This document shows, piece by piece, positions 41,828-51,398 of a stretch of 64,000 nucleotides of DNA. The translations under genes were made by a program, and so were the position numbers. The notes under the pieces are model-generated. The model saw only the letters and a list, made by a program, of their open reading frames with translations. It was not told where the DNA came from and made no database searches. The DNA is from Anaerobiospirillum sp. (GTDB lineage Bacteria; Pseudomonadota; Gammaproteobacteria; Enterobacterales; Succinivibrionaceae): assembly GCA_029258325.1 (NCBI GenBank), contig JARHZF010000061.1, positions 1 to 64,000 on the forward strand, written 5' to 3'. Each line of letters opens with the position of its first letter. Within the stretch, counting starts at the first letter, position 1.

Positions 41828-42931
41828 ATGATTAACTATGGTGTAGTTGGTGTAGGCTATTTTGGTGCCGATTTAGCAAGAATTGTTAATGGTTTTGACA
41901 ATGCTAAAGTAACTAATGTCTTTGATTTAGAAAATGGCAAAACTATTTCAGAGGAGCTTAACTGTAAAAATTGTAGCTCACTTTTAGAATTAGTATCTGC
42001 AAAAGACGTTGATTGTGTCATTGTAGCTACACCAAATTATTTACATAAAGAGCCTGTAATTGAGGCTGCAAAGCATAAAAAGCATGTATTTTGTGAAAAG
42101 CCAATTGCCCTAAGTTATCAAGATTGTGATGAAATGGTAAAAACATGTAAAGAGAATAATGTGATCTTCTTCGCAGGTCATATTATGAACTTCTTCCATG
42201 GCGTTCGTCACGCTAAAGATTTAATCAATAAAGGTACTATTGGCGATATTTTATATATTCACACAGCAAGAAATGGTTGGGAAGATGTACAACCTTCAAT
42301 TTCTTGGAAGAAAATAAGAGCAAAGTCAGGTGGTCACTTATATCATCATATTCATGAATTAGATTGCGTACAATTTTTAATGGGCGATATTCCTGATACA
42401 GTTATGATGATGGGTGGTAATGTAGCTCATCAAGGCGAAGCTTTTGGTGATGAAGATGATCTCTTAATTGTTAACTTAAAATTTAAAAATAATAGATATG
42501 CTCTTTGTGAGTGGGGTAGTGCTTTCCGTTATGGTGAACACTATGTGTTAATTCAAGGTACTAAAGGTGCTATTAAACTTGATATGTTCCACTGTGGTGG
42601 TACTTTACGCGTAGATGGTGTAGATACTCACTTTACAGTTCATGAAAATCAAAAAGAAGATGATGATAGAACAAGAATCTATACATCAACTGAAATGGAT
42701 GGTGCTATTCAATATGGCCATCCAGGTAAAAGAACTCCTCTTTGGTTGCACAGCATAATGGTAAATGAAATGAAATATTTAAATGAAATTATGCATGGTG
42801 CTAAACCTAGCGTAGAGTTTGAAAAACTTCTTACAGGTGAAGCTGCTAGAAATGCAATAGCTACAGCTGATGCTCTAACCTTATCTATTAAGGAAAATAG
42901 AGTTGTAAGCCTTAGTGAAATTATTAAATAA
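41828..42931 (+). CDS. nanY: 2,7-anhydro-Neu5Ac oxidoreductase, first copy (NanY/YjhC type)
   Basis: This Gfo/Idh/MocA family enzyme is very like E. coli YjhC, which converts 2,7-anhydro-N-acetylneuraminate to Neu5Ac with a bound NAD cofactor. The 367-residue chain has the Rossmann motif VVGVGYFG (6-13), VATPNYLHKEPV, CEKPIAL (EKP at 90-92) and the catalytic-pocket stretch GGHLYHHIHELDCVQ (168-182). It is followed after 31 bases by a YjhB-like transporter, and a near-identical paralogue lies beyond that. The match to YjhC runs from the first residue (MINYGVVGVGYFGA) to the last block (GEAARNAIATADA). Confidence 0.85.
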   Translation: MINYGVVGVGYFGADLARIVNGFDNAKVTNVFDLENGKTISEELNCKNCSSLLELVSAKDVDCVIVATPNYLHKEPVIEAAKHKKHVFCEKPIALSYQDCDEMVKTCKENNVIFFAGHIMNFFHGVRHAKDLINKGTIGDILYIHTARNGWEDVQPSISWKKIRAKSGGHLYHHIHELDCVQFLMGDIPDTVMMMGGNVAHQGEAFGDEDDLLIVNLKFKNNRYALCEWGSAFRYGEHYVLIQGTKGAIKLDMFHCGGTLRVDGVDTHFTVHENQKEDDDRTRIYTSTEMDGAIQYGHPGKRTPLWLHSIMVNEMKYLNEIMHGAKPSVEFEKLLTGEAARNAIATADALTLSIKENRVVSLSEIIK

Positions 42932-44344: not shown

Positions 44345-45448
44345 ATGATTAATTATGGTATTGTTGGTGCAGGTTACTTTGGAGCTGATTTAGCTCGTAT
44401 CTTAAATAAAATTGAAAATGCTAAAGTTACTAATATTTTTGATTTAGAAAATGGTTTAGCTATAGCAAATGAACTTAATTGTAAAAATTGCTCATCACTT
44501 GATGAACTTGTTAGTGCTAAAGATGTAGATTGTGTCGTAGTTGCAACTCCAAATTATTTACATAAAGAACCTGTAGTTAAAGCAGCTCAAAATAAAAAGC
44601 ATGTATTTTGTGAAAAACCTATTGCTCTAAATTATAAAGATTGTGATGAAATGGTACAAATATGTAAAGAAAATGATGTAGTTTTCTTTGCAGGCCATAT
44701 TATGAACTTCTTTCATGGTGTACAACATGCAAAAGATCTAATCAATAAAGGCACTATTGGTGATATCTTATTTATTCATACTGCAAGAAATGGTTGGGAA
44801 GATGCTCAACCTACAATTTCTTGGAAGAAAATAAGAGCAAAATCAGGTGGTCACTTATATCATCATATTCATGAACTAGACTGTGTTCAATATCTTATGA
44901 ATGATATACCTGATACTGTTATGATGATGGGTGGTAATGTAGCACATAAAGGTGAAGCTTTTGGTGATGAAGACGATCTTTTAATTGCTAATTTAAAATT
45001 TAAAAATAATAAATATGCTCTTTGTGAATGGGGTAATGCATTTCGCTATGGTGAACATTATGTATTAATTCAAGGTACAAAGGGTGCTATTAAACTTGAT
45101 ATGTTCCATTGTGGTGGTACTTTGCGTGTAGATGGTGTAGATACACACTTTAATATACATAGAAATCAAGAAGAAGATGATGATAGAACAAGAATATACA
45201 CTTCATCAAAAATAGAAGGTGCTATTAGATATGGTCATCCAGGTAGCGAAGTTCCTCTTTGGCTACGCAATTTAATGATTGATGAAATGCAATACTTAAA
45301 TGATATTATGTTAGGTGCAAGACCTAAAGAAGAATTTAAACAATTACTTACAGGTGAAGCTGCAAGAAATGCTATTGCAACAGCTGATGCTCTAACTTTA
45401 TCTTTAAAAGAAAATCGTGTTGTAAACTTAAGTGAAATAATTAAATAA
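44345..45448 (+). CDS. 2,7-anhydro-Neu5Ac oxidoreductase, second copy
   Basis: The 367-residue product is a paralogue of the gene at 41828, about 80-85% identical by eye and of equal length, with the same VVGAGYFG-type Rossmann loop (IVGAGYFG), CEKPIAL and GGHLYHHIHELDCVQ. Substitutions are scattered rather than clustered, so both copies look functional. The ribosome site TTAGGAG is the same as in the first copy. No CRP site is seen before it; a weak TACAAT (44305-44310) could be its -10. Confidence 0.85.
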   Translation: MINYGIVGAGYFGADLARILNKIENAKVTNIFDLENGLAIANELNCKNCSSLDELVSAKDVDCVVVATPNYLHKEPVVKAAQNKKHVFCEKPIALNYKDCDEMVQICKENDVVFFAGHIMNFFHGVQHAKDLINKGTIGDILFIHTARNGWEDAQPTISWKKIRAKSGGHLYHHIHELDCVQYLMNDIPDTVMMMGGNVAHKGEAFGDEDDLLIANLKFKNNKYALCEWGNAFRYGEHYVLIQGTKGAIKLDMFHCGGTLRVDGVDTHFNIHRNQEEDDDRTRIYTSSKIEGAIRYGHPGSEVPLWLRNLMIDEMQYLNDIMLGARPKEEFKQLLTGEAARNAIATADALTLSLKENRVVNLSEIIK

Positions 45449-45501: not shown

Positions 45502-47508
45502 TTATTTTTTGAAATTGTTTAAATAAGATTCTATAAGATTTACTGTATTTTCAACTCCTATTGAAGTATCAACACAAAGATTATAATTTATAGAATCTCT
45601 CCATTTTCTACCTGTTATATTTTCATAATAAGAAGAACGTGCCTCATCTGATCTTATTAAATGAGCTAAAGCTTCCTCTTTTGTATCTCCATACATTTCC
45701 ATAATATTTTTAATTCTATAATCATTAGGAGCATATAAGAATATAGACTTTAATGACTTATTATTACGTAATACATAGTCAGCAGCTCTTCCTACTATTA
45801 CACAAGATCCTTTTTCAGCTATCTTACTAATAATCTTTTCTTGAGCAATAACAGCTTGTTGAATAACTTCTGAACTTAAATAAAGCTCATGAAATATCCT
45901 ATTTTGATTTTCATTTATCTTAGATACAAATTCCTCTGCAAGACCACTTTCTTTAGCAGCAAGTGCAGTCATCTCTTTATAGTAGAATGGAATATTTAGT
46001 CTATTTGCAAGATGACGACCAATCTCCTTACCCTTAGAACCATGTTCACGAGCAATAGTAATAATAAATCCTTCTTTTGATTCTTGTATGATAGGTGTTT
46101 CTTTAGCAATATTTGATTGTTCTTTTGCTTGTAATTTATCTAAATGCTTAAAGAACTTAGTAGTTAATACAATAATAGTAATACCAGCTACAAAATCAGA
46201 TAAAGGAGCTGCAATTAAAACACCATAAATACCAAGACCATCTTCATGTCTTTCAAAAAGATAGGCTATAGATAATGTGAAAATTACTATGCATATAATG
46301 TCACGAATAACTGATGCAAGTATAGCTTGAAATGACTTACCAATAGATTGGAAAAATACTGCAGTCATTTTAACTAGACAAGTAATAACACATAAAGATA
46401 AATAGACTCTAAAAGTATAAAGAGCAAACTCTTGATAAAGAGCATTTCCAGAACCAAAAATATTAATAATAAGATTTGGAGTAAATTCAAAAATTAAAGT
46501 AGCAATAATACCTACTATAATTGAGTATTTTAAAACTAATTTATAAGTGGCTCTTACCCTATCATATTTTTGAGCACCATAGTTAAATCCTAAAATAGGT
46601 TGGGCACCAAGAGCTATACCTGTCACAATAGCAACAACAATTGTATAAACCTTAGTTTGAATACTAAAAACAGAAATTGCTATGTCACTGCCAAATTTTG
46701 ATAAATTACCATAATGAAATAAAGCCATATTGCTAAGTAAGGTCATAACAACTATACCTATTTGCGTGGTAAATGTAGCACCACCTAAACTTATAAGGCT
46801 TTTTAAAATTTGAAAATCTATATAAAAACTCTTTAAAGTTAAAATAAAACTCTTTGGTTTTCTTAAATAAATAATACAAACTAAAAAAGATAATACTTGA
46901 CCTATAATAGTTGCATAAGCTGCACCTTTTATTCCTAGATCTAAAACAAAGATGAAGATAGGATCTAATATAAGATTAATAATAGCACCAGTTACCATAG
47001 CAATCATGGCATAAGATGGACTTCCATCTGCTCTTATTATGCTATTTATAACATTTAAAAGAAGATAAAAAGGAAAACAACTAACAACAATAACAAAATA
47101 ATCTACAGCGAGGGCTAAAGTTTTATCTGATGCTCCAAATAGCAACATTAAAGGCTCTGCAAATACTATACAGATAATAGTTAAAATGATACTTATAATA
47201 AAAGAACTAGTAATACCTGTTCCTACACATTTATGAGCTCTATCTTTATCATTTCTACCTGCACATATGCTTAAATAAGATGCAGCACCATCACCTACAC
47301 ACCAAGCAAAAGCATTTGCAATGCATATAATAGGAAAAGATACACCTGTAGCTGCATTACCTAAATAGCCAAGAGAACTATTTCCGATAAAAATTTGATC
47401 TACGATATTATATAAAGCACTAATTAAAAGTCCCATTACACAAGGTATTGAGAATTTAAAAAGCAATTTTGAAATATCGCCCTCACCTAAAAGTTTAGAG
47501 TTTTCCAT
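45502..47508 (-). CDS. MATE-family transporter fused to a cytidylate-kinase-like domain
   Basis: The 668-residue protein has an N-terminal MATE exporter of about 12 membrane helices (1-455; GDISKLLFKFSIPCVMG, YNIVDQIFIG, ADGSPSYAM, GAQPILGFNYGA) of the MepA-like branch. After a polar linker it carries a soluble cytidylate-kinase-like domain (about 480-668; IITIAREHGSKGKEIGRHLA with a P-loop variant, VIVGRAADYVL, RSDEARSSYYENITGRKW). Similar fusions occur in gut Firmicutes; the kinase substrate is unknown. It lies 24 bases after guaD and is probably in one transcript with it, so it would fall under the purine riboswitch. Purine or purine-analogue export is a reasonable guess only. Confidence 0.85.
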   Translation of the reverse strand: MENSKLLGEGDISKLLFKFSIPCVMGLLISALYNIVDQIFIGNSSLGYLGNAATGVSFPIICIANAFAWCVGDGAASYLSICAGRNDKDRAHKCVGTGITSSFIISIILTIICIVFAEPLMLLFGASDKTLALAVDYFVIVVSCFPFYLLLNVINSIIRADGSPSYAMIAMVTGAIINLILDPIFIFVLDLGIKGAAYATIIGQVLSFLVCIIYLRKPKSFILTLKSFYIDFQILKSLISLGGATFTTQIGIVVMTLLSNMALFHYGNLSKFGSDIAISVFSIQTKVYTIVVAIVTGIALGAQPILGFNYGAQKYDRVRATYKLVLKYSIIVGIIATLIFEFTPNLIINIFGSGNALYQEFALYTFRVYLSLCVITCLVKMTAVFFQSIGKSFQAILASVIRDIICIVIFTLSIAYLFERHEDGLGIYGVLIAAPLSDFVAGITIIVLTTKFFKHLDKLQAKEQSNIAKETPIIQESKEGFIITIAREHGSKGKEIGRHLANRLNIPFYYKEMTALAAKESGLAEEFVSKINENQNRIFHELYLSSEVIQQAVIAQEKIISKIAEKGSCVIVGRAADYVLRNNKSLKSIFLYAPNDYRIKNIMEMYGDTKEEALAHLIRSDEARSSYYENITGRKWRDSINYNLCVDTSIGVENTVNLIESYLNNFKK

Positions 47509-47532: not shown

Positions 47533-48810
47533 TTAAAATAATTGAGTACCTTTTACATATTTTGCAAATACTTCACGTTCATCTGCTAAATAAATCATGC
47601 GTTCTAAACGCTTTTCAAGATCTTGAAGTTCACTATGATTAATTCTAGTATCATCTAAAACTAATATGTCAGACTCATAACCTTGCTCAAAACTACCTAC
47701 TTTACCAAAGAACTCACCACCACCTTTAGTTGCAAGATAAAAGCCTTCAGCTACAGTTAAAGGATTTAAAGAGCTATCTTGTAATCTCCAACGTATTTTT
47801 GATGCTTGAATTGCATAAGCTATAGCTTTAAAAAGATTTAAAGTTGTACCTGCAGCTACATCACTACCTAAGCCTATATGCATATCTTTATCTAAGAAAG
47901 TACGAATAGGAGCAATACCTGAACTTAGATTTATATTTGATTCAGGGCAATGTGCTATAAAAACACCATTTTCTTTCATTCTTTCAATTTCAATAGATGG
48001 TGAGTAAACACAGTGAGCCATAATAGTTTTAGTATTGCGACCAAACATATTAAATTTATCGTAGGCATCACCATAGAAACTAGACCAAGGACAGAGTTCT
48101 TGAACCCATGCTATTTCTGATGGATTTTCAGATAAATGTGATTGCACACATAAATCATATTTATCCTTTAAACTTTGAAGTTTAGTCATTAACTCATCAG
48201 AGCAACTTGGAATAAAGCGTGGGGTTAAAATAGCTTTAGTATTTTTATAATTTTTATCTAAAACATTTAAAATAAATTTTTCTGTATTTGAAAAAGCAAT
48301 AGATGCAGATTCTTCTCTTAAGCTATCAGGGCTATTTCTATCCATATTAACCTTACCTACTAAGGTAGATAAGTTAGATTTCTCTAGCATATCCATTAAA
48401 AGTAAGGTTGAATCTTCATGAATAGTAGCAAAGATACAAGCTCTTGTTGTTGTGCTTTTTCTTAATCTTTCAACAAAGTTTGTATAAGCTTTTTGTGCAT
48501 AAGTTAAAGAGCTATATTTAGACTCTTCAGGAAAAGTATATGTATTAAGCCAATCAAGTAGCTCTAAATCCATGCCAATACCTTGAAATGCGTATTGAGG
48601 AGCATGAATATGTAGATCTGTCATGCCTGGTATTATGATCCTATCACCATAATCTTTATAGACATAATCTTTTAAATGTGGAGGAATTTCATTATATATT
48701 GCGTCAATAAGACCATTTATGGAAACTAAATAACTATCTTTATGAATTGAAAGTTCTTTACTATTTTTACTAAAAAGAATGTTTCCATGTAAAACTAAAA
48801 TATTGTCCAT
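47533..48810 (-). CDS. guaD: Guanine deaminase (amidohydrolase family)
   Basis: The enzyme hydrolyses guanine to xanthine and ammonia. The 425-residue TIM-barrel amidohydrolase has DLHIHAPQ (zinc HxH at 67-69), LLDWLNTYTFPEE (a guanine-deaminase signature), GKVNMDRNSPD, QSHLSENPSEIAWV, MAHCVYSPS and LGSDVAAGT. The ATG at 48810 is chosen because AAAAGGAA precedes it and the homology starts there; an upstream in-frame start at 48879 would run through the leader terminator. Related 8-oxoguanine deaminases share these motifs, so substrate identity is not fixed. The leader carries a purine-riboswitch-like element. Confidence 0.88.
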   Translation of the reverse strand: MDNILVLHGNILFSKNSKELSIHKDSYLVSINGLIDAIYNEIPPHLKDYVYKDYGDRIIIPGMTDLHIHAPQYAFQGIGMDLELLDWLNTYTFPEESKYSSLTYAQKAYTNFVERLRKSTTTRACIFATIHEDSTLLLMDMLEKSNLSTLVGKVNMDRNSPDSLREESASIAFSNTEKFILNVLDKNYKNTKAILTPRFIPSCSDELMTKLQSLKDKYDLCVQSHLSENPSEIAWVQELCPWSSFYGDAYDKFNMFGRNTKTIMAHCVYSPSIEIERMKENGVFIAHCPESNINLSSGIAPIRTFLDKDMHIGLGSDVAAGTTLNLFKAIAYAIQASKIRWRLQDSSLNPLTVAEGFYLATKGGGEFFGKVGSFEQGYESDILVLDDTRINHSELQDLEKRLERMIYLADEREVFAKYVKGTQLF

Positions 48811-48853
48811 AACAAAATAATTCCTTTTTAAAAGATATTGTTTATGCAGGGAC

Positions 48854-48900
48854 AAAAAAAACAGCCTGCTATACATCAATTATGTCTTATAGCTAAACTG
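48854..48900 (-). terminator. Intrinsic terminator of the guaD leader (riboswitch expression platform)
   Basis: On the minus strand CAGUUU-(A)-GCUAU-(AAG)-ACAU pairs with AUGU-AUAGC-AGGCUG around a 5-nt loop and is followed immediately by eight Us (48861-48854). The 5' arm of the stem (48900-48881) is made of the P3 and P1 3' strands and J3/1 of the aptamer, so aptamer and terminator exclude each other. This predicts ligand-induced antitermination. Confidence 0.8.
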
Positions 48901-48950
48901 TTTACGGTAGTTTGTAGAAACATTCCCCCAATTGGGAATTTATATAAGTC
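48884..48950 (-). ncRNA. Purine-riboswitch-like aptamer (variant guanine class)
   Basis: Read on the minus strand, P1 (48950-48943 with 48891-48884), J1/2 UAA, P2 AUUCCC/GGGAAU with loop AAUUGG, J2/3 GUUUCUAC (48921-48914), P3 AAACU/AGUUU with loop CCGUAAA (48907-48901) and J3/1 A-G-C reproduce the purine aptamer. U22, U47, U51, A52 and C74 equivalents are present, as are the GG of L2 and CC of L3 that form the loop-loop contact. Departures from the consensus are a P2/L2 arm 3 nt short and one extra G between A73 and C74. Ligand may be guanine or another purine. Confidence 0.85.
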
Positions 48951-48982
48951 ATCTTCATATAAATGCTAACACTCTTTTTTTT

Positions 48983-49068
48983 AAATGTGAAGATGCTTTT
49001 TATACTTTTATTAGACTTGTCTAAGTTTTAATAAAAAAATTTTAAAAAGCATGCCTTTTATCACATTT
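48983..49068. repeat. Long imperfect inverted repeat with a TTAGAC palindrome at its centre
   Basis: AAATGTGA (48983-48990) mirrors TCACATTT (49061-49068); ATGCTTTTTA mirrors TAAAAAGCAT; TTATTA mirrors TAATAA; the centre is TTAGACTTGTCTAA (49011-49024). Gaps and mismatches separate the blocks. It sits upstream of the aptamer, at or near the guaD promoter, and a further TTAGAC occurs at 49212-49217 by the punA promoter. Confidence 0.65.
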
Positions 49069-49358: not shown

Positions 49359-50186
49359 ATGGAAAACCCTATTTTTGCAAAATTAGTAACTTGTGCTGAA
49401 TGCGTTAAGAAAAAAATTTCTTTTAAACCAAAAGTAGGTTTAATTCTAGGTTCAGGTTTGGGCAATTATGCAGATAAAATAAAAATTGTCGAAACTCTTG
49501 ATTATTCAGATATTGATGGATTCCCAATTTCAACTGTAAAAGGTCATAAAGGTAGATTTGTTTTTGGTTATGTAGGAGAGACTCCTATTGTTGCTATGCA
49601 AGGTAGAGTTCACTACTATGAAGGTTACTCAATGTCAGATGTTGTTCTTCCTACACGTCTTATGGCTATTATGGGTATAAAAGTATTAGTTCTAACTAAT
49701 GCTGCAGGTGGTGTTAATGTATCCTACAAAGCTGGTGACTTTATGATGATTACAGATCATATTGCAACATCAGTTCCAAATCCATTAATTGGTCCTAATG
49801 TTGAAGATTTAGGCACACGCTTCCCTGATATGAGCGAAGTTTATAGTGTTCGTCTTCAAAGTATTATAAGAAAATGTGCTTTAAATTGTGATATCCCTAT
49901 TCAAGAAGGTATTTACGTCCAATTTACAGGTCCAAGTTATGAAACTCCAGCTGAAGTTAGAATGGCTAGAGCTTTAGGTGGTGATGCTGTTGGTATGAGC
50001 ACAGCTTGTGAAGCTATTGCAGCTCGTCATATGGGTATTGAAGTTTGTGGTATATCTTGTATTACTAATATGGCAGCAGGTATTTCAGATCAAGCTTTAG
50101 ATCATAAAGAAGTTCAAGAAACAGCTGATAGAGTAGCTTCTCAATTTGAACTATTAATAACTGATTTATTAAAAGAATTAGCTTAA
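49359..50186 (+). CDS. punA: Purine nucleoside phosphorylase (trimeric, PunA/XapA type)
   Basis: The enzyme splits guanosine, inosine or xanthosine with phosphate into base and ribose-1-phosphate. The 275-residue protein has LILGSGLGNYADKI (phosphate loop), VKGHKGRFVFG, MQGRVHYYEGYS, LTNAAGGVN and the purine-site segment STACEAIAARHMG with TNMAAGISDQALDHKEV. These are features of the low-molecular-mass trimeric family. An AAAAGGTGG ribosome site precedes the ATG. It lies 12 bases before a nucleoside transporter gene, forming a salvage operon. Confidence 0.92.
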   Translation: MENPIFAKLVTCAECVKKKISFKPKVGLILGSGLGNYADKIKIVETLDYSDIDGFPISTVKGHKGRFVFGYVGETPIVAMQGRVHYYEGYSMSDVVLPTRLMAIMGIKVLVLTNAAGGVNVSYKAGDFMMITDHIATSVPNPLIGPNVEDLGTRFPDMSEVYSVRLQSIIRKCALNCDIPIQEGIYVQFTGPSYETPAEVRMARALGGDAVGMSTACEAIAARHMGIEVCGISCITNMAAGISDQALDHKEVQETADRVASQFELLITDLLKELA

Positions 50187-50198
50187 AAGGTATGTGCT

Positions 50199-51398
50199 AT
50201 GGTACAGATCATACTTAACTTATTAGGCGTTGCAGTAGTTGTTGCTTGCTGCTTTTTGCTTTCTTGGAATAAAAAACAAATTAATTGGAAACTTGTAATA
50301 AAAGCTCTTGTATTCCAATTTATTATTGCTTTCTTTATAGTTAAAGTTCCTATTGGTCAAAAAGTCATTACTACACTTTCAGATGGTTTAACCTCTATTG
50401 TAAATTGTGGTAATGAAGGTCTTGCCTTTGTATTTGGTGATCTTGCAAACAGAGATAAGATGTGGGTATTTATAGTACAAGGTCTTGGTAACATTATCTT
50501 TGTTTCTGCACTTGTTGGTCTACTTTATTACTTGGGTGTCATTGGCTTTATTGTTAAATGGATTGGTATTGCTGTAGGTAAACTATTAGGTACTACTGAA
50601 GTTGAAAGTTTCGTATCTGTTGCAAACTTATTCTTAGGTCATACTGATAGCCCTATCCTAGTTAGACGCTATATAAGATATTTAACAGACAGTGAGCTTT
50701 TTGTAATTTTAGTATCAGGCATGGGTTCAATGTCAGCATCTATCTTAGGTGGTTATCATGCTTTAGGTATTCCTATGGAATATTTATTAATAGCAAGTGC
50801 TATGGTACCTATTGGTAGTATGATGATTGCTAAGATTATCCTACCTCAAGTAGATGAAGTTAAATCTATTACTGATGTAAAAATGGATAGTAAAGGTGAA
50901 CACAATAATATGATTGATGCCCTAACAGAGGGTGCTACTACTGGTATGAAAATGGTTATATCCATTGCAGCATCAATTGTAGGCTTTGTGGGTGTTGTAG
51001 CATTAGTTAATATGATTTTATCTCCAACAGGTGTTACCTTATCTAATATATTCTCATATATATTTGCTCCATTTGGCTTCTTTATGGGTTTAGATGGTAA
51101 AGATATATTATTAGAAGGTGCTTTACTTGGTAATAAATTAATATTAAATGAATTTGTTGCATTTAAAGATTTAGCAGGTGAGTTAAGTACACTTGATCCT
51201 CGTGTAGGTATGATCTGTGCAATCTCATTATGTGGTTTTGCTAACTTATCAAGTATGGGTATGTGTGTAGGTGGTATTGGTGTTTTATGTCCTGAAAAAC
51301 GCCATGTTATCTCAAGATTAATTGTACGTGCAACCTTAGGTGGTATGTTTGTAAGTATCTTAAGTGCTTTACTTGTAAGTATTGTAATGTTGATTTAA
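50199..51398 (+). CDS. nupC: Concentrative nucleoside transporter (NupC/CNT family)
   Basis: The 399-residue membrane protein imports nucleosides with protons or sodium. It shows the CNT features QGLGNIIFVSALVGLLYYLG, the ESFVSVANLFLGHTDSPILVRRY motif, SGMGSMSASILGGYHALG and the late LCGFANLSSMGMCVGGIG. The number and spacing of helices fit NupC. It is translated directly after punA and ends at a strong terminator. Confidence 0.94.
   Translation: MVQIILNLLGVAVVVACCFLLSWNKKQINWKLVIKALVFQFIIAFFIVKVPIGQKVITTLSDGLTSIVNCGNEGLAFVFGDLANRDKMWVFIVQGLGNIIFVSALVGLLYYLGVIGFIVKWIGIAVGKLLGTTEVESFVSVANLFLGHTDSPILVRRYIRYLTDSELFVILVSGMGSMSASILGGYHALGIPMEYLLIASAMVPIGSMMIAKIILPQVDEVKSITDVKMDSKGEHNNMIDALTEGATTGMKMVISIAASIVGFVGVVALVNMILSPTGVTLSNIFSYIFAPFGFFMGLDGKDILLEGALLGNKLILNEFVAFKDLAGELSTLDPRVGMICAISLCGFANLSSMGMCVGGIGVLCPEKRHVISRLIVRATLGGMFVSILSALLVSIVMLI

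Follow-up and report, generated by a model that had tools for sequence, protein, structure and literature searches.

A predicted guanine-class riboswitch with ON-type anatomy precedes a guanine deaminase gene in Anaerobiospirillum sp.

We analysed a 64,000-nucleotide stretch of contig JARHZF010000061.1 from Anaerobiospirillum sp. (hereafter, the window). On its minus strand, the leader of a guanine deaminase gene (guaD) contains an aptamer that is a true member of the known guanine-class family (RF00167). The leader is probably a guanine-responsive riboswitch that turns ON transcription of guaD. Textbook guanine riboswitches turn OFF genes that make or take up purines. Here, the same aptamer would do the opposite job, as an ON switch for guanine breakdown, an arrangement shared with spirochaetes and Clostridia and seemingly brought to this host by transfer.

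We searched the whole 64-kb window with the Rfam purine model, RF00167, which matched positions 48967-48870 (minus strand) at 56.3 bits (E 5.5e-7). The alignment covers the full-length model (1-102) and scores 19 bits above the curated cut-off of 37 bits. Our own covariance model of the aptamer gave 64.7 bits for the window sequence, which is itself in the training set. The aptamer spans 48882..48952 on the minus strand from P1 to P1, as delimited by RF00167, our own model, a pair-by-pair check and covariation. P1 (48952-48943/48891-48882) comprises nine pairs and one A-A mismatch, P2 (AUUCCC/GGGAAU, 48939-48934/48927-48922) six pairs, and P3 (AAACU/AGUUU, 48913-48909/48899-48895) five pairs followed by an A-C mismatch. 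The helices are joined by J1/2 UAA (48942-48940), the eight-nucleotide J2/3 GUUUCUAC (48921-48914) and J3/1 AGC (48894-48892), and are capped by L2 AAUUGG (48933-48928) and L3 CCGUAAA (48907-48901). Within J3/1, A73 is 48894, an extra G is 48893, and C74, the presumed ligand-pairing C, is 48892.

The conserved motifs of purine aptamers are all present (UNUCUAC in J2/3, GG in L2, CC in L3 and UA in J1/2), and the pocket bases U22, U47, C50, U51, A52, C53 and C74 all match the guanine class. Every feature that the original prediction described for a guanine-class three-way junction is found in the sequence, with its pairs verified one by one, and the minus-strand covariance search places it above the cut-off. 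This includes the A-U pair at the base of P2, the extra G at 48893 and the P2/L2 arm that is 3 nt short (18 nt, usually 21). The base-of-P2 pair varies freely among relatives, as GC, GU, UA or AU.

The folding energy of the aptamer alone is unexceptional relative to shuffled sequences (z -0.48), so the case for the aptamer rests on the covariance score and the relatives. The fold of the whole leader is better than that of shuffles (z -2.74), with 2 of 200 shuffles equally good. P3 is weak, consisting of five A-U-rich pairs and the A-C mismatch, and there is no second copy of the aptamer in the family, as might be expected if a decayed aptamer stood before an ordinary attenuator and no longer responded to ligand. 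We regard such decay as very improbable, because J2/3, L3, J1/2 and C74 retain every universally conserved base, the match lies 19 bits over the cut-off and other phyla also have this aptamer paired with this gene.

The aptamer overlaps an intrinsic terminator hairpin (48860..48902, minus strand), which has a local folding energy of -13.7 kcal/mol, is contained in the minimum-free-energy fold of the whole leader and ends in a run of eight Us (48854..48861). The 5' arm (48902-48888) comprises the end of L3, the P3 3' strand, J3/1 and the start of the P1 3' strand, and the 3' arm lies at 48873-48860. The outer stem has 14 pairs, in which A73 is bulged and the extra G and C74 are both paired. Thus, fold and sequence bear out the earlier description of a terminator that shares the P3/P1 3' strands and J3/1 with the aptamer. 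In the predicted structures the terminator and the aptamer are mutually exclusive. Since the terminator 5' arm consumes P3, J3/1 and P1, a bound ligand should turn transcription ON. The ON logic and the downstream guanine deaminase proposed at the outset are both supported.

We found no separate, aptamer-independent terminator in the leader. Most guanine riboswitches that control biosynthesis or uptake genes are of the OFF kind (PMC9295807), and an OFF switch here would require the ligand-bound aptamer to favour termination. We consider this hardly credible, since the sole terminator found needs the P3 3', J3/1 and P1 3' strands, which the bound aptamer would lock.

The predicted folding energies are -11.3 kcal/mol for the aptamer state and -22.7 kcal/mol for the terminator state, and in the absence of ligand the leader is predicted to fold as P2 plus terminator. 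When the transcript was lengthened in steps, the minimum-energy fold included P1 and P2 of the aptamer for 3' ends at 48886-48871, and both helices gave way as soon as the RNA reached 48868 and beyond. With 11 kcal/mol between the states and a weak P3, the switch must work kinetically.

We propose that RNA polymerase would first transcribe the aptamer in full, to about 48871. Guanine bound through C74 would then hold the P1 and P3 helices and lock the terminator 5' arm, allowing read-through into guaD and probably also into the following transporter gene. In the unbound case, P1 and P3 would be invaded by the 3' arm as it emerges, the far more stable terminator would form and transcription would stop. 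Guanine deaminase would thus be made only with guanine in excess. The extra G and the short P2 would be tolerated variations, possibly tuning affinity.

This predicted platform resembles that of adenine ON riboswitches, in that the 3' side of P1, J3/1 and P3 is invaded when unbound. Of the adenine ON riboswitches, pbuE is transcriptional and Vibrio add translational, and the window riboswitch would work like pbuE. The window aptamer differs from the adenine class in having C74 rather than U74, and is therefore guanine-type. A possible sigma-70-type promoter (TTCACA-17-TAGCAT with TG before the -10, 48963..48991, minus strand) was identified by consensus scan and would place the RNA start near 48956, immediately before P1. 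Promoter-like sites are no more frequent in the region than in shuffles, and it is the position alone that is suggestive.

The guaD gene (47533..48810, minus strand) encodes a 425-residue guanine deaminase of the amidohydrolase type and is preceded by a ribosome-binding site, AAGGAA (48821..48826), 10 nt before the ATG at 48810. The product scores 364 bits against the NCBIfam guanine deaminase model TIGR02967, just under its cut-off of 375, and 104 bits against the 8-oxoguanine deaminase model, which has a cut-off of 532. These scores support the initial assignment of guanine deaminase. The closest solved chain is 2i9u, followed by human guanine deaminase, 2uz9. A gene for a MATE-type transporter fused to a cytidylate-kinase-like domain (45502..47508, minus strand; Pfam MatE, Cytidylate_kin2) begins 24 bases after guaD and is probably co-transcribed with it. 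Genes for a purine nucleoside phosphorylase (pnp) and a NupC-type transporter (49359-51398, plus strand) are divergent from guaD. Elsewhere in the window, two near-alike Gfo/Idh-type dehydrogenases (41828-42931 and 44345-45448, plus strand) lie on either side of a sialate-type MFS transporter.

A protein-pattern scan of a collection of genome contigs for GuaD relatives found none, and we used instead a DNA pattern for the unusual J3/1 and whole-genome searches. GuaD homologues occur in Clostridia and in one spirochaete order, most of them 44-56% identical to the window protein. Rfam purine aptamers lie directly upstream of guaD in two Clostridia (L094 and L097) and in many spirochaetes (L143-L171), while some other Clostridia have an aptamer in front of an operon that joins a permease gene to guaD (L312, L313, L318 and L319). 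Within the spirochaete order, 34 of 139 genomes have the aptamer, and most of these aptamers are directly before guaD. Across 43 guaD-linked aptamers, 16 of the 18 model pairs have changed on both sides, a covariation score reached by no shuffle. Thus, the aptamer-guaD pairing recurs in relatives and the junction structure covaries. In the GuaD tree, one spirochaete clade has the aptamer in all 17 members, and the window GuaD belongs to a clade of 14 rows that includes the clostridial aptamer-bearing genes (97/96). In the literature collection searched, no paper linked a guanine riboswitch with guaD.

The leaders of L094 and L097 have a terminator with its 5' arm inside P3/L3. Among leaders with a terminator, it overlaps the aptamer in 25 deaminase-linked cases vs 1 that does not; before permease and biosynthesis genes, the corresponding numbers are 22 vs 59 (Fisher p 1.7e-10, with kinship ignored). 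The overlap test is imperfect, in that half of the purE leaders (10 of 20) were likewise called overlapping. In the spirochaete leaders the start codon is close behind P1, and the 3' strand of P3 matches the ribosome-binding region in complementarity beyond chance (87 of 10000 permutations were as good), which fits translational ON switches. The guaD-linked aptamers of spirochaetes and Clostridia, permease-guaD operons included, share with the window aptamer the gene, the fold, a short P2, often a G before C74 and, where guaD follows directly, ON-type anatomy. They differ in that most P2/L2 arms are 19 nt, and the spirochaete examples apparently act on the ribosome-binding site and not on a terminator. 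As judged from sequence, guaD-linked purine aptamers with ON-type anatomy are a recurrent arrangement of spirochaetes and Clostridia. At L312 (3519-3598, minus strand, and downstream), a very long terminator-like hairpin (-55 kcal/mol) overlaps P3 and J3/1 on one side of the aptamer in front of the permease-guaD operon.

We compared the window aptamer to the known classes. It shares with Guanine-I (xpt type, RF00167) the three-way junction, the GG/CC loop-loop contact, J2/3 GUUUCUAC, U51 and C74, and the class marks C74, U51 and U47 are unchanged. It differs in J3/1, which is AGC and not AC, in the P2/L2 arm of 18 and not 21 nt, and in a platform that is ON-type by anatomy, whereas xpt is OFF. 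The usual 2-nt J3/1 of A73-C74, which is not strictly defining for Guanine-I, is absent, and the window has 3 nt. Xanthine-II is characterized by U51G and insertions in J2/3 (PMC9295807), whereas the window keeps U51 and an 8-nt J2/3. The 2'-dG classes have altered J2/3 pocket bases, in contrast to the consensus J2/3 of the window. From its sequence, the most likely ligand of the window aptamer is guanine. The original prediction had presented the aptamer as a variant whose ligand was open. That view is weakened by the unchanged ligand-switch bases U22, U47, U51 and C74, yet part of it stands, as a G 5' of C74 is common to an aptamer set linked to 8-oxoguanine deaminase.

The DNA pattern for the window J3/1 was found in 41 contigs, most of them real aptamers and mainly from Bacillota, and uniqueness of the extra G to the window was rejected on this basis. 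A G lies directly 5' of C74 in 17 of 102 distinct clostridial aptamers, in 22 of the 32 spirochaete guaD-linked aptamers (p 7e-8, for sequences that are related) and in all 14 distinct Paenibacillaceae aptamers located before 8-oxoguanine deaminase, and is rare in the biosynthesis and salvage aptamers of Clostridia (4/49). Similarly, a short P2 (18-19 nt) is present in 30 of the 32 spirochaete guaD-linked aptamers vs 14/106 in Clostridia. The higher frequency of both features in guaD-linked aptamers would suit a guanine aptamer that has been retuned, in which the extra G and the short P2 weaken binding or hasten ligand release and the enzyme is made only at high guanine. We advance this tentatively, as a refinement compatible with the guanine-responsive ON switch. 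The spirochaete sequences are close kin, so that their counts are not independent, and the guaB aptamers of some Clostridia also have a 19-nt P2. Furthermore, short P2 and G are unlinked within Clostridia (p 1.0), where we rejected the two as one linked subtype. Hence, of the features called unusual, the extra G and short P2 are real but not unique to the locus, since they recur in relatives.

The J3/1 form of the window, an A54-U72 pair and then AGC, also occurs in clostridial aptamers before NCS2 permeases (L035 and L065) and before purL (L282), which are typical targets of guanine riboswitches, in leaders whose terminators are separate from the aptamer, and hence OFF-type. An AGC J3/1 is therefore compatible with ordinary guanine sensing. 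A G beside C74 was seen before purL, NCS2 permeases, xpt and other genes, and in the purL leader with G a PRPP-type aptamer sequence comes next, as judged by eye. Among the spirochaete aptamers linked to guaD, some have A and others G in front of the same gene. Position 73 is U in L094, which has the clostridial GuaD nearest to the window, and A in L097, so the extra G is not conserved in the closest relatives. Most simply, the extra G can be reconciled with guanine sensing, which it may adjust, and a change of ligand is conceivable but need not be invoked.

The existence of a variant class that selectively recognizes 8-oxoguanine has been stated (PMC9295807), and we infer that the Paenibacillaceae set linked to 8-oxoguanine deaminase corresponds to it. 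Many members share the AAUUGG kind of L2 with the window, and the set has a G directly 5' of C74, an ON terminator that overlaps the aptamer and an amidohydrolase gene downstream. Because the J2/3 and C74 of this set are otherwise guanine-like, the G is its consistent difference, and its invariance makes a ligand other than guanine conceivable. The window aptamer could accordingly be a variant that senses 8-oxoguanine and switches on the amidohydrolase that removes it, with the G beside C74 reshaping the pocket. In line with this, the J2/3, J1/2 and C74 forms of the Paenibacillaceae aptamers also occur in ordinary guanine aptamers. We nevertheless think an 8-oxoguanine sensor decidedly unlikely: the window enzyme is a guanine deaminase and scores poorly with the 8-oxoguanine deaminase model. 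In addition, the window aptamer retains A73 and inserts the G, giving a J3/1 one nucleotide longer than the 2 nt of Paenibacillaceae. The occurrence of G before purL, NCS2 permeases and xpt, and its alternation with A in spirochaetes, argue in the same direction. The window aptamer further differs from the Paenibacillaceae set in having J1/2 UAA and not UAU, and its host is unrelated.

A broader form of this idea treats a G immediately 5' of C74, whether inserted or substituted, as the hallmark of a subtype of altered specificity or affinity that switches on purine-degrading genes, covering guaD in spirochaetes, Clostridia and this host as well as 8-oxoguanine deaminase in Paenibacillaceae, with the window aptamer preferring 8-oxoguanine or another purine over guanine. 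Taken as a whole, we consider this unlikely. The recurrent G beside the ligand-pairing C may link one pocket-side nucleotide to either ligand choice or sensitivity.

Other aptamers with this G were observed. Two loci in Bacillaceae, L033 and L041 (Evansella and Alkalicoccobacillus), outside Paenibacillaceae, have a G before C74 and 8-oxoguanine-deaminase-like genes. Separately, a FAD-dependent oxidoreductase is the first gene behind purine aptamers at L038, L072, L043, L302 and L309, in Lachnospiraceae, Paenibacillus and other Clostridia. Most of these aptamers have a G before C74 and an overlapping terminator (ON anatomy).

Finally, we examined the lineage of the host. The purine aptamer is the single one in its genome, and both the aptamer and guaD are found in 1 of 57 family genomes, so the riboswitch and guaD look horizontally acquired. 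The window GuaD groups in the tree with clostridial homologues bearing riboswitches. Thus, this lineage appears to have acquired the aptamer and guaD jointly through horizontal transfer, with Bacillota as the likeliest donors. The pnp of the window stands alone among 56 family genomes, with no close counterpart in the 55 others, and the acquired part of the purine gene cluster may therefore extend further. No co-transfer of MATE, pnp or nupC with guaD was seen around the guaD homologues. The dnaG on the same contig is found family-wide and its best match, the top of the family at 47%, is from a same-genus genome. The contig therefore fits the family, which speaks against contamination of the assembly.

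The gammaproteobacterial host had also been called unusual, a claim that does not survive comparison with its order. Purine aptamers are present in 60 of 395 genomes of the order. The 30 top-scoring ones are adenine-type (U74), and the adenine-type aptamers of the order precede an add-like gene, which suggests that the order includes bacteria resembling Vibrio. Most of a further 20 lower-scoring aptamers that we read are guanine-type with C74. We therefore rejected the idea that a guanine-type aptamer is out of place in this host, and its possession of one is no surprise.
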